In this document: piece by piece, positions 37,351-40,933 of the stretch
Numbering within the stretch: position 1 is the stretch's first letter
How the letters are laid out: each line of letters opens with the position of its first letter
NCBI GenBank assembly: GCA_012728215.1
Contig: JAAYFO010000023.1
Coordinates: 1 to 41,184 of the forward strand
DNA from: Spirochaetales bacterium
Lineage (GTDB): Bacteria; Spirochaetota; Spirochaetia; Sphaerochaetales; Sphaerochaetaceae
Direction: 5' to 3'
DNA: 41,184 nucleotides
Notes under the pieces: model-generated
The model's input: the letters and a program-made list of their open reading frames with translations, nothing else
What the model was told of the DNA's origin: nothing
Database searches by the model: none
Position numbers and translations under genes: made by a program

Positions 37351-37941
37351 CTACTCCAGTTTCTTCAGTATTTCCAGCTGTGAATGCAGCACAGTTCTCA
37401 CTACCTCCGCACTATCGTGAGAAAAATAAGTCAACTGGAAGCAGTATGACTCCAAAAGTATGACAATGCGTCTCACTTCAATGTCCACATCACAGTCAGA
37501 AATCACTCCATCACGGATTCCAGATCGCAGAAGTCTTCTAATCAGGTGCTGAAGCTTTGCGGTCCTTCGATACACCGCATCCTCCAACTGCTGATCAATC
37601 TTGCTGACTGCAACTATAAGGTTCCTTATCTGGTCGATATTGCGTGCAGCAGTGTCCATGATATCATCACAGATATCCAGTATTCCATTGAGAGGATGGC
37701 TCTTTCCTGTCCATTCAACCTCGCTGTACTTTACAAACATATCCTCGGTGGACTGCTTGAGAGCATAGTAGTAGATGTCTTCCTTGTTCTGGAAATACTG
37801 ATAGAGAGTCGCCCGAGAAAGACCACTGCTCTTTGCAATATCACTGAGATTCGAATCGTCATACCCATCTCGTGCAAATACTTCCAAAGCAACTTTCAGT
37901 ATCATTTCCTTGCGCTTCTCATGGTCTACTTTCTTAGGCAT
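37351..37941 (-). CDS. TetR family transcriptional regulator
   Basis: MPKKVDHEKRKEMILKVALEVFARDGYDDSNLSDIAKSSGLSRATLYQYFQNKEDIYYYA; start trimmed; SD AGGAGAG. Confidence 0.92.
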   Translation of the reverse strand: MPKKVDHEKRKEMILKVALEVFARDGYDDSNLSDIAKSSGLSRATLYQYFQNKEDIYYYALKQSTEDMFVKYSEVEWTGKSHPLNGILDICDDIMDTAARNIDQIRNLIVAVSKIDQQLEDAVYRRTAKLQHLIRRLLRSGIRDGVISDCDVDIEVRRIVILLESYCFQLTYFSHDSAEVVRTVLHSQLEILKKLE

Positions 37942-37995
37942 CTTGCTCTCCTGACGTGAGTTGATATAATAATAATAGCACAGGAACGTTTTTTT

Positions 37996-38012
37996 CACAA
38001 TTGTAAATTGTG
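37996..38012. promoter_or_regulatory. Candidate operator upstream of the tetR gene
   Basis: CACAATT-GTA-AATTGTG, perfect 7-bp arms, just upstream of TATTAT and the tetR SD. Confidence 0.5.
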
Positions 38013-38118
38013 TCAAACACCAGCAGGCAAATGCTGAACACTGAAAACACTACGCCATTCACTTGTTAATTTTCAAGTAAAAAGCCCTCAAAAGCTGCCG
38101 CAATATTCATCGGCCTGA

Positions 38119-38922
38119 TCAGAAAGTCAGTACAACTTCTCCATTAGGATAGGTGGAGGCCACCCAGTTGCGAACTTCATCACTCTGCAGAGCGGCAATC
38201 AAGGCTACTATTGCAGGATCTTTCTCATGACCTTCCTTGACTGTGATGATATTCACATACGGGCTATCTGCACCTTCGATGAACAGTCCATCCTCATTGG
38301 CCTTAAGTCCGGCAGGAATGGCATAGTTCCCGTTGATGACTGCAGCATCCACATCAGGCAGAACGCGAGGAATAGTCGCGGCTTCCAGCTCAGAGAACTT
38401 CAGGCCAAGCTTGTTCTCTGAAATATCCTGAACTATGCTGTCAAGCTTGCTTGGATCCTTGAGCTTTATCAGACCGGCGGACTGAAGAAGAAGAAGTGCT
38501 CTCCCTTCATTGGTCGGGTCGTTTGGAATGGCAATCAACGAACCTTTTTTAAGCTGATCAAGCGACGAAATCTTCTTTGAATATACTGCCAGTGGCTCGA
38601 TATGGATTCCACCTGCGTTTGAAAGGTGATAGCCATGCTCGGTATTGAATGAAACCATGTAAGGTATGTGCTGGAAGAAGTTGGCATCAAGTTCTCCTTC
38701 TTCCAGAGCGGTGTTCGGTGTGACATAATCAGTGAACTCTACGATCTGAAGATCAATTCCCTGTGCTGAGAGATCATCCTTGACAAGATTCAGCATCTCT
38801 GCATGAGGAACTGGAGTTGCTCCAACCTTAAGCACCTGCTTTCCTGATTCCTGGGATCCCTGGGCACACACTGCACAGACGACAAATATCGCAACAAAAG
38901 CGCAAACTAAAATTTTTTTCAT
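38119..38922 (-). CDS. metQ: MetQ/NlpA family methionine-binding lipoprotein
   Basis: KVGATPVPHAEMLNLVKDDL, YVTPNTALEEGELDANFFQHIPYM, LIAIPNDPTNEGRALLLLQ; start at MKKILVCAF with SD ATAGGAG. Confidence 0.93.
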   Translation of the reverse strand: MKKILVCAFVAIFVVCAVCAQGSQESGKQVLKVGATPVPHAEMLNLVKDDLSAQGIDLQIVEFTDYVTPNTALEEGELDANFFQHIPYMVSFNTEHGYHLSNAGGIHIEPLAVYSKKISSLDQLKKGSLIAIPNDPTNEGRALLLLQSAGLIKLKDPSKLDSIVQDISENKLGLKFSELEAATIPRVLPDVDAAVINGNYAIPAGLKANEDGLFIEGADSPYVNIITVKEGHEKDPAIVALIAALQSDEVRNWVASTYPNGEVVLTF

Positions 38923-39022
38923 ACTATTACTCCTATCGGACAAACACACCCGAAACAATTCACTGATCGACGACCAGAGCCAAAACTAAAACGAAAAATA
39001 CCTGAAATAGGATACGAAGAAA

Positions 39023-39088
39023 TCATGCCCTCCCGGGCATCATCATGAGAGACATTGCACAGAAATCAAAACAAAATGCAGTTCTCAT
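39023..39088 (-). CDS. Candidate 21-aa Met/Cys-rich leader peptide upstream of metQ
   Basis: ATG..TGA translating to MRTAFCFDFCAMSLMMMPGRA; SD AAAGGAG at 39095-39101 with 6-nt spacing; promoter-like TTGACT-N17-TAATGT just upstream. Confidence 0.6.
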   Translation of the reverse strand: MRTAFCFDFCAMSLMMMPGRA

Positions 39089-39116
39089 GTATTTCTCCTT
39101 TAAAAGTATTGTCAGC

Positions 39117-39145
39117 ACATTAACCAAATTTTTGAATTTAGTCAA
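39117..39145 (-). promoter_or_regulatory. Promoter and overlapping dyad for the leader peptide/metQ
   Basis: TTGACT (39140-39145), 17-nt spacer, TAATGT (39117-39122); dyad TTGACTAAATT-caaa-AATTTGGTTAA at 39120-39145, 9 of 11 positions symmetric. Confidence 0.55.
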
Positions 39146-39258: not shown

Positions 39259-39924
39259 TCAGCGTTTTTCCATCAAGTCAGCACTGATCTTGTTTCCAAT
39301 GACTTGAATAATCTCAACCATCACCAAGATCACAACCACAGCTGCAAGAAGCACATCGGTGCGCCATCTCTGAAAACCATATCTGATTGCAAGGTCGCCT
39401 AATCCACCACCACCTATCGTACCAGCCATAGCACTGTAGCCAATCAGATTGATTATCGTCAAAGTCACACCTGATACCAATGACGGCATGGCTTCCGGAA
39501 GCAGAACCTTGAATACTATCTGTTTGTTGGTGCTTCCCATTGCCTTTGCAGCCTGAATCACTCCAGGATCAACTTCCTTAAGTGCAGATTCAATTACTCT
39601 TGCAACGAATGGAGCAGCGGCTATGGAAAGAGGAACTATGGTTGCAGCCGTTCCAATGCTCTTGCCTAGAATCAATCTGGAAAGAGGAAACAGCACTATC
39701 ATCAGAATCAGAAACGGAAAGGATCTGAGGACATTGACAATCCGTCCAAGCACCTGATTAAGAACCTTCATCGGCTTTATTCCGCCTTGGTCCTCCGGTA
39801 AGCTGACACAGAGCAATACACCAACCGGCAGCCCAAGCAGCATGGAGAATACAGTGGAAAAGAAAACCATTATCAAAGTCTGCAAAGTGGCGTTACCCAC
39901 AAGTCTTAGAACTTCATTCATCAA
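39259..39924 (-). CDS. metI: Methionine ABC transporter permease MetI
   Basis: TLQTLIMVFFSTVFSMLLGLPVGVLL...NVLRSFPFLILMI...GYSAMAGTIGGGGLGDLAIRYGFQRW. Confidence 0.95.
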   Translation of the reverse strand: MMNEVLRLVGNATLQTLIMVFFSTVFSMLLGLPVGVLLCVSLPEDQGGIKPMKVLNQVLGRIVNVLRSFPFLILMIVLFPLSRLILGKSIGTAATIVPLSIAAAPFVARVIESALKEVDPGVIQAAKAMGSTNKQIVFKVLLPEAMPSLVSGVTLTIINLIGYSAMAGTIGGGGLGDLAIRYGFQRWRTDVLLAAVVVILVMVEIIQVIGNKISADLMEKR

Positions 39925-40933
39925 CTCCCTCCTCGACTACGATACCCTGCTTTACAAGATACTCTATCGCAGCCTTGCGGTTTTCTTCATCACCACTTAT
40001 ATCACAGACGATCGTACCCATCTGTTCACCTTCGACATGCTGTACTCCACCGGCACGGATGTTCACTTCCACAGGAAGATACCTGCAAAGTCTGCTTAGA
40101 ACTGGGGTATCGGTCATTCCACCTCTGAATCGGAGTGTATAACGGCCACCCTTTCTTGACCAGCGGACCAGCTCTTCATCCTTCTGACTGGAATCAACAG
40201 CCAGTGTCATCAGATGCGCAAGGAAATCCTTGGTGACTTTGCTCTTGGGATGAGAGAACAGTTCGGAAACGGGGCCGCTCTCAGCAACACCGCCTTCATC
40301 AAGAACTGCCACATAGTTGCAACTGTCGCGGACAACTTCCATCTGGTGGGTTATCATGACGACAGTCAGGTTCATCTTTTTCTGTATCTGCTTGATCAAA
40401 TCCAAAATAGCCCTTGTGGTCTGAGGATCCAAAGCACTTGTGGCTTCGTCACAGAAAAGGATATCAGGCTTGTTTGCCAAGGCTCGTGCGATAGCTACAC
40501 GCTGTTTCTGTCCACCACTCAATTTGCTTATGGGAGTTTCGATTCTGTCTGCCAGACCAACAAGGTCCATCAGCTCAAAAACTCGTTTTTCAATCTGTTC
40601 CTTGCTCATTCCACAGATTTCAAGAGGATAAGCGACATTTCTGCCCGCTGTCCTGGAAGAGAACAAATTGAAATTCTGGAAGATCATCCCAATCTTTCTT
40701 CGCTGGGCAATCAATTCGTCCCTATCAAGCTGATCAACTCGCTTATCGTCAAACCATACACTACCTGAATCAGGCTTTTCCAGCAGACTCATCATTCTGA
40801 CCAACGTGGACTTGCCTGCGCCGGACTTTCCTATTATGCCGAAAATCCTGTTCTCAGGAATCTCCAACGAAATATCGCTGACAGCATGGAGCGACCCATA
40901 GTGCTTGACCAGATTTTTTAAAGTAATCCTCAT
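39914..40933 (-). CDS. metN: Methionine ABC transporter ATP-binding protein MetN with C-terminal NIL-type domain
   Basis: GIIGKSGAGKSTLVRMMSLLEKPDSG, KLSGGQKQRVAIARALANKPDILFCDEATSALDPQTT; overlaps metI. Confidence 0.95.
   Translation of the reverse strand: MRITLKNLVKHYGSLHAVSDISLEIPENRIFGIIGKSGAGKSTLVRMMSLLEKPDSGSVWFDDKRVDQLDRDELIAQRRKIGMIFQNFNLFSSRTAGRNVAYPLEICGMSKEQIEKRVFELMDLVGLADRIETPISKLSGGQKQRVAIARALANKPDILFCDEATSALDPQTTRAILDLIKQIQKKMNLTVVMITHQMEVVRDSCNYVAVLDEGGVAESGPVSELFSHPKSKVTKDFLAHLMTLAVDSSQKDEELVRWSRKGGRYTLRFRGGMTDTPVLSRLCRYLPVEVNIRAGGVQHVEGEQMGTIVCDISGDEENRKAAIEYLVKQGIVVEEGVDE

Follow-up and report, generated by a model that had tools for sequence, protein, structure and literature searches.

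The metQ gene of the window, as we call the whole stretch of 41,184 nucleotides analysed, is preceded by a short open reading frame (ORF) rich in methionine codons, which recurs together with its gene context among related spirochaetes and which we take, with a probability of about three in four, as part of a ribosome-mediated attenuator that acts in cis, responds to the availability of Met-tRNAMet and governs the uptake of methionine. The ORF and its Shine-Dalgarno (SD) sequence, the Met clusters, the covariation of a first helix (P1), the invariance of a second one (P2), a U-rich tail, a coding signal and the gene contexts can all be read in the genomes compared. The two helices had been overlooked in an earlier, sequence-only reading of this DNA; the observation made there is confirmed as real, and it is stronger than first reported. 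The positions of the features are collected in Table 1.

Table 1. Features of the metQ leader region and its neighbouring genes in the window
Feature	Position	Strand	Basis or remark
Leader ORF MRTAFCFDFCAMSLMMMPGRA*	39023..39088	minus	21 codons, ATG at 39088, TGA ending at 39023; sequence and ORF list, conserved equivalents, coding signal
Leader SD strand GGAGAAAU	39091..39098	minus	RNA fold of the window, predicted partner 39016-39023
Candidate sigma-70-type promoter of the leader-metQ transcript	39117..39145	minus	Sequence
Final Met-codon run AUG AUG AUG (codons 15-17), presumed stall site	39038..39046	minus	
P1 5' strand CAUGAGA, includes the leader start codon	39083..39089	minus	Pairs with 39044-39050
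P1 3' strand UCUCAUG	39044..39050	minus	End of the pyrimidine box and first Met codon of the final run
P2 hairpin AUGCCC-GGGA-GGGCAU	39025..39040	minus	Overlaps the last Met codon and the stop codon; flagged terminator-like
Pyrimidine-rich tract after P2, U-rich tail GAUUUCUUCGUAUCC	39008..39024	minus	Enrichment in relatives
metQ, methionine-binding lipoprotein, downstream gene	38119..38922	minus	PF03180, E 5e-92
metI, permease, upstream gene	39259..39924	minus	MetI model, E 3e-61, just under cut-off
metN, ATPase with NIL domain, upstream gene	39914..40933	minus	MetN model, E 2.5e-102

The leader ORF and its neighbours

The sequence-only reading had placed in the metI-metQ gap a 21-codon ORF with an AAAGGAG sequence at a spacing of 6 nt, and both were found exactly as claimed (SD at 39101-39095). 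Methionine occupies codons 1, 12, 15, 16 and 17, and cysteine codons 6 and 10. The peptide had been described as rich in sulfur amino acids, which holds for Met, with 33% of the body residues in 49 non-redundant leaders (Ser, 18%), and fails for Cys, with 3.6% across the family; the cysteine codons can be regarded as incidental. The promoter-like sequence reported 5' of the ORF is also present, as TTGACT (39145-39140) and TAATGT (39122-39117) separated by 17 nt. Individually this is a weak site, and such sequences are enriched in the relatives, where the top promoter score 5' of the leader is 8.14 versus 7.46 +/- 0.15 in shuffled sequences and the -10 element ends ca. 31 nt ahead of the leader ATG (both on 49 non-redundant relatives).

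The PF03180 match of the gene located 3' of the leader agrees with its earlier description as a methionine-binding protein gene. By family matching, the three neighbouring genes are closest to MetQ, MetI and MetN, though under the strict cut-offs of NCBIfam; the metQ product matches the MetQ subfamily model with an E value of 3e-64, under the model cut-off, and the metN product is under the cut-off of the MetN model, with its NIL domain over its own. A gene encoding a TetR-like regulator (37351-38016, minus strand) lies just 3' of metQ in the same orientation. No Rfam family was matched in the metI-metQ gap, nor did the SAM-I, SAM-II, SAM-III and SAM-V riboswitch models at metQ, or the T-box model at the leader, give any match at gathering or relaxed thresholds, which bears out the earlier statement that no known RNA element was recognised at this gene.

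Equivalent ORFs in relatives range from 19 to 25 codons. Among the single-base changes that separate 69 pairs of related leaders in their N-terminal part, 47, 35 and 94 affect codon positions 1, 2 and 3, and 80 changes are synonymous versus 45.6 expected, the pairs not being independent; an excess of synonymous substitutions, which the sequence-only reading had suggested looking for, is thus seen. Positions 1 to 3 of the final run are Met in 48, 45 and 40 of 48 relatives (100%, 94% and 83%), and a second Met cluster is found 3-5 codons before that run, codons -5 to -3 being Met in 73%, 54% and 67%. In the window this upstream cluster is a lone AUG, codon 12. The control codons are these two Met clusters, which flank the strand complementary to the ribosome-binding site (RBS) of the leader, that is, the P1 3' strand. 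The SD, the Met-rich body and the final Met run are the conserved features of the leader, and the C-terminus of the peptide is not conserved.

Distribution among Sphaerochaetaceae-type spirochaetes

Homologues of metQ were gathered from 141 genomes of the family without regard to the leader. Allowing for chance hits and diverged forms, metQ is preceded by an equivalent leader in about 80 of these genomes, and the conservation in relatives on which the earlier proposal was made to depend was found, with ORF, SD, Met runs and context recurring in 8 of the 22 genera of the family. The P2 pattern is present in 83 of the 141 genomes, and 78 distinct elements were collected. Of the 30 top-ranking loci in the metQ homology search, 18 have a leader-type ORF ahead of metQ, which is short, is preceded by an SD, contains a Met run and ends in MMMPx(R/W)A or nearly so; such an ORF is present also in 9 of 20 further loci found in the same way, which were chosen partly since a strict pattern had missed them. 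In leaderless loci metI and metQ nearly touch, or a recognisable leader is absent. In one locus (G080:C1:2233352-2234174) the metQ gene is broken, with a TGA, into two overlapping frames, and the leader ahead is intact; this could be either a disrupted gene or an assembly error.

The organism-named contigs that carry the element are mainly from Spirochaetales MAGs and from Bullifex porci, and a contig from the window's own genus carries the title Sphaerochaetaceae; Bullifex belongs to the Spirochaetaceae according to NCBI, so the family name varies with the taxonomy used. With a strict sequence pattern, which diverged stems would escape, no element was detected in ca. 300 genomes that represent 44 further families of the class, and no convincing one outside the family in 85,488 species genomes. 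Proteobacteria, Gemmatimonadetes and a few genomes of the family also gave matches to the P2 pattern, which were discarded as chance hits, since they had no SD or no stop codon, or were intragenic.

Predicted pairing of the leader's ribosome-binding site with leader codons

Just before the Met run the leaders carry a box of pyrimidine-rich codons (Ser-Ser, Phe-Ser, Leu-Ser or Ser-Leu) complementary to the leader SD, and it is with this box that the leader's own RBS is predicted to pair, forming P1. Examples of partners are GGAGGACA with UGUCCUCC, GGAGAGCA with UGUUCUCC, GAGAGACA with UGUCUCUC and GGAGGGUUG with CAGCUCUCC, as well as GGAGGACAC with GUGUCCUCC, where Val stands instead of Met. 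The energy of the RBS-box duplex is -10.68 kcal/mol versus -8.28 kcal/mol for permuted partners (z -8.8; 49 sequences), the covariation is retained with one sequence per 65% cluster (z -6.7), and the signal peaks exactly at the box. Pairing of the same codons with the metQ SD was rejected, showing no covariation (z +0.8). A helix of at least 6 bp is found in 46 of 49 elements, the longest one having 14 bp, and exchanging the box for other leader codons raised the predicted accessibility of the SD from 0.23 to 0.46.

In alignment A2, 93.3% of the P1 cells are paired, double changes occur in 7 of 8 pairs, and the covariation score was reached by none of 500 shuffles; when the whole structure was slid along as a control, the paired fraction dropped to 39-54%. 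Shuffles ignore relatedness, and the cluster-level test and the slid controls are therefore the safer evidence. Full-leader MAFFT alignments misplace the SD in many rows, for which reason P1 was counted on an SD-trimmed alignment, in which six rows are still off by a column or two, and fixed-anchor counts were made too. In the window and its sister L002, P1 is shifted by a few bases so as to include the start codon (CAUGAGAG with CUCUCAUG in L002), and the SD itself is predicted to pair with the tail; the fold of positions 39010-39112 of the window (minus strand) has a z of -2.7. Pairing of the SD with the U-rich tail was discarded as a general feature (z +1.0), being confined to the window's genus (L001 and L002).

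Hairpin P2 and the tract that follows it

In the family, P2 has the form AUGCCC-N4-GGGCAU and is located at the stop codon, directly following the Met run. Its GCCC/GGGC pairs are invariant, the outermost pair of the stem excepted, in 77 of 77 aligned elements, many of which were retrieved by the P2 pattern itself; the loci picked by metQ homology alone agree. The tract after P2 contains in relatives 7.65 T and 0.29 G per 14 nt versus 4.03 and 2.70 expected, and at least 5 T within an 8-nt window are found in 44 of 49 tails, about 9 being expected by chance. The P2 stem has just 6 bp, the stop codon intervenes before the U tract, and several elements have a poor U tract, that of the window being among the weaker ones. 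An extended stem in which AUGAUG pairs with post-stop sequence is possible, with a weak signal (z -1.9, 17/500).

No conserved alternative helix that could serve as a mutually exclusive antiterminator was found among the relatives. Pairing of the P1 box with the P2 3' arm was rejected in that role, since P2 is invariant and a stalled ribosome would hide both strands. A second hairpin, GUCCC/GGGAC, occurs about 45-70 nt past the leader stop in many genomes (for instance L021, L053, L120 and L164), but it is missing from several others (L036, L037, L039 and L043).

A less likely possibility is that the Met-codon-sensing leader is the same but acts through Rho-dependent termination, or through decay of the mRNA, in the unstructured and G-poor sequence that follows it, instead of through intrinsic termination at P2. 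The 30 nt located 3' of P2 are nearly free of G, some U tracts are weak, the untranslated RNA before metQ spans 75-160 nt, and terminator-less Cys leaders of Mycobacterium have been explained likewise (PMC1262725). Against this output, a Rho site would not need the U-rich sequence that follows right after a strict GC hairpin in 44 of the 49 tails, and a ribosome stalled on the Met run would leave the post-stop region uncovered.

Proposed mechanism

The conservation of the ORF, of its Met codons and of its context supports the Met-codon leader proposed in the sequence-only reading. Translation of the leader, stalling, termination at P2 and the direction of the response, on at low methionine, are inferred. 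The transcript would have a short start followed by the SD, the ORF of 19-25 codons with P1 and the Met run, P2 over the stop codon and the U-rich, G-free tract. With ample charged Met-tRNA, the first ribosome would finish and depart, the leader start would be shut by P1, and transcription into metQ would be reduced by P2 and the U-rich tail behind it. With scarce charged Met-tRNA, the ribosome would stall within either Met cluster. The P1 3' strand lies between the two clusters, so that a stall at either one should open P1, by occupying or melting that strand, and the leader would stay open; a stall on the last run would additionally cover the P2 5' arm and block P2, and metQ would be made from the open message. 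A ribosome covers about 15 nt on either side. Closed P1 and P2 would then mean low metQ, presumably via termination at P2 and otherwise via Rho or decay. A point against the attenuator reading is that Met starvation also lowers the charging of the initiator tRNA.

P2 would also be covered by a ribosome that follows RNA polymerase closely without stalling, and left free by a stall at the upstream cluster, so that the anatomy leaves the polarity unfixed; physiology argues in favour of induction at low methionine. A polarity like that of pyrBI, in which translation through P2 blocks the terminator and stalling at the upstream cluster lowers metQ expression, is permitted by the geometry, as a stall 3-5 codons before the last run would free P2, and pyrBI-type attenuation has the same geometry. 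We consider it unlikely, because uptake would be shut off under methionine scarcity and the Met codons within the P2 5' arm would be left unexplained.

The ending MMMP is nearly universal among the leaders, and proline near the end is common in arrest peptides, so that one might think of an arrest peptide in the manner of TnaC or SpeFL, whose nascent chain would sense SAM or free methionine and whose arrest motif would be MMMP. The makeup of the peptide makes this improbable. Its N-terminus differs between groups, and its run may contain Cys or Leu and has from one to three Met. Pro is encoded by CCC and Ala by GCA almost without exception, the former as P2 requires, and the codon between them is NGG with any N, which gives Arg, Trp or Gly. 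In three genomes (L148, L149 and L156) the stop codon falls within the P2 loop, so that the peptide ends in MMMP and the hairpin is kept. P2 is thus kept despite a varying or missing peptide tail, which indicates selection on the RNA and not on the tail, and no conserved C-terminal peptide independent of RNA constraints was found.

A metabolite riboswitch, with P1, the AUGAUG junction and P2 as aptamer and the ORF as incidental, would account for two helices with a near-invariant junction at a gene of the kind that, together with SAM genes, is a classic riboswitch target, but it is very improbable, since the frame is open and has an SD and a coding signal, no Rfam family matches, and the P1-P2 spacing varies in whole codons (one to three Met codons, with AUGUGC, AUGCUG or a single AUG accepted), which favours codon reading over a ligand pocket.

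Comparison with known systems

The element would work like a leader-peptide attenuator, and its nearest layout is that of uORFC-8-2 before cysS in Rhodobacterales (PMC8632094), for which ribosome-mediated attenuation has been proposed and which likewise has tandem control codons at ca. positions 14-15, two stems and a 3' U run. It differs in its Cys codons, its alphaproteobacterial hosts, the aminoacyl-tRNA synthetase gene that follows and the location of the control codons in the first stem, and the section consulted on it makes no mention of pairing with the leader RBS (PMC8632094). The trpL, hisL, leuL and ilvL attenuators (Rfam His, Leu, Thr and Trp leaders) share with the metQ leader a short ORF rich in codons for the regulated amino acid, near the promoter and before the genes for that amino acid, with RNA helices overlapping the control codons. 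The metQ leader is in turn distinguished by its amino acid, methionine, by its phylum, Spirochaetota, by a first helix that closes its own RBS, by a hairpin inside the end of the ORF and by the absence of a conserved terminator/antiterminator exchange; as no exchangeable antiterminator helix was found, we do not file it as a classical trp-type attenuator.

A Met-containing leader peptide, metL, has been proposed before metNIQ in Streptomyces lividans, without conservation evidence (PMC8079986). It shares with the present element its position ahead of a methionine ABC transporter, whereas it comes from one genome, is 29 codons long (MSTTSDRTPATEATTTPGARCMCRRMCAF), contains two internal Met but lacks a Met run, is leaderless, has no U-tailed terminator and is unlike the metQ leader in sequence and structure. 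The suggestion that the mechanism was possibly new has therefore to be divided: the architecture is the element's own, while the idea of a Met leader before metNIQ had already been put forward for S. lividans. The Cys leader ORFs before cys operons of Mycobacterium are also conserved and have a run of sulfur-amino-acid codons near the stop, but the codons are Cys instead of Met and there is no conserved hairpin (PMC1262725). In the LEU element before leuA of Actinobacteria, leader codons pair as well with an SD box, in that case the SD of the regulated gene, whereas those of the metQ leader pair with the leader's own (PMC1262725). Of two earlier surveys, one from 2005 detected no RNA element at the methionine operons of Actinobacteria (PMC1262725), and one from 2010 gave Proteobacteria and Actinobacteria as the only groups with known leader systems and added Firmicutes to them (PMC2965389). 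A literature search with most subscription journals outside its scope yielded no description of the present element and no leader attenuator from Spirochaetota, and the only Met-tRNA leader sensor in the literature searched was the single-genome proposal for S. lividans metL. The P1 architecture, in which the RBS is closed by codons flanked by Met clusters, is new here.

Other genes behind the element

A second copy of the element may occur in the same genomes before other methionine-linked genes. In L166 it stands before a second metN-metI-metQ operon, and in L170, L171, L173 and others before an apparently circularly permuted MetQ with an M20 amidohydrolase behind it. In L167 and L168 it is found ahead of an oligopeptide-binding protein (SBP_bac_5) with a permease, which suggests uptake of Met-containing peptides or of a Met-linked substrate, and in L169 ahead of an Fe-ADH with an aminotransferase that has methionine-aminotransferase models among its best matches. 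The second MetQ-like lipoprotein (L170:1048-1950, minus strand; found with the leader also in L051, L071, L075, L086, L116, L119 and L171) looks circularly permuted in L170, where this was checked, residues 31-163 matching MetQ 130-258 and residues 192-296 matching MetQ 23-126. At even odds in our estimate, there is a hitherto undescribed family of RNA regulators, self-closing leaders whose own start is hidden by a strand lying between control codons, so that stalling at those codons determines if the leader remains open. In Sphaerochaetaceae-type spirochaetes it would act as a Met-tRNA sensor for a small regulon; this would comprise metQ, the second metN-metI-metQ, the permuted MetQ with the M20 amidohydrolase, the peptide-binding protein and the Fe-ADH with the aminotransferase.

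The SAM-I riboswitch (RF00162) also provides RNA control of sulfur metabolism in the window's genome, but it sits before metK and gives no match at metQ, which points to separate RNA sensors for SAM synthesis and for methionine uptake. SAM-I riboswitches of the family precede two clearly different types of MetK, one divergent, found in L195 and in the genus of the window, and one that looks like the usual bacterial type, found in others (L190, L191, L192 and L195 versus L196 and L198). In L193, L194 and L197, SAM-I stands before a protein of ca. 240-260 amino acids, by eye of the N-formylglutamate amidohydrolase type, an unusual target.

Significance

Leader-peptide attenuators are known for many amino acids, and the control of methionine genes is normally ascribed to SAM riboswitches, T-boxes or repressors. 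The metQ leader probably switches uptake on when charged methionine tRNA is short. The coexistence of a conserved Met-codon leader with SAM-I on metK implies that SAM and charged Met-tRNA would be sensed separately, with a division of labour in which SAM would be read for SAM synthesis and Met-tRNA for uptake. Since translation also starts with methionine, the question arises of how starvation for initiation and for elongation are told apart. The P1 arrangement would offer these spirochaetes a simple, testable means to restrict the leader to about one translation per transcript.
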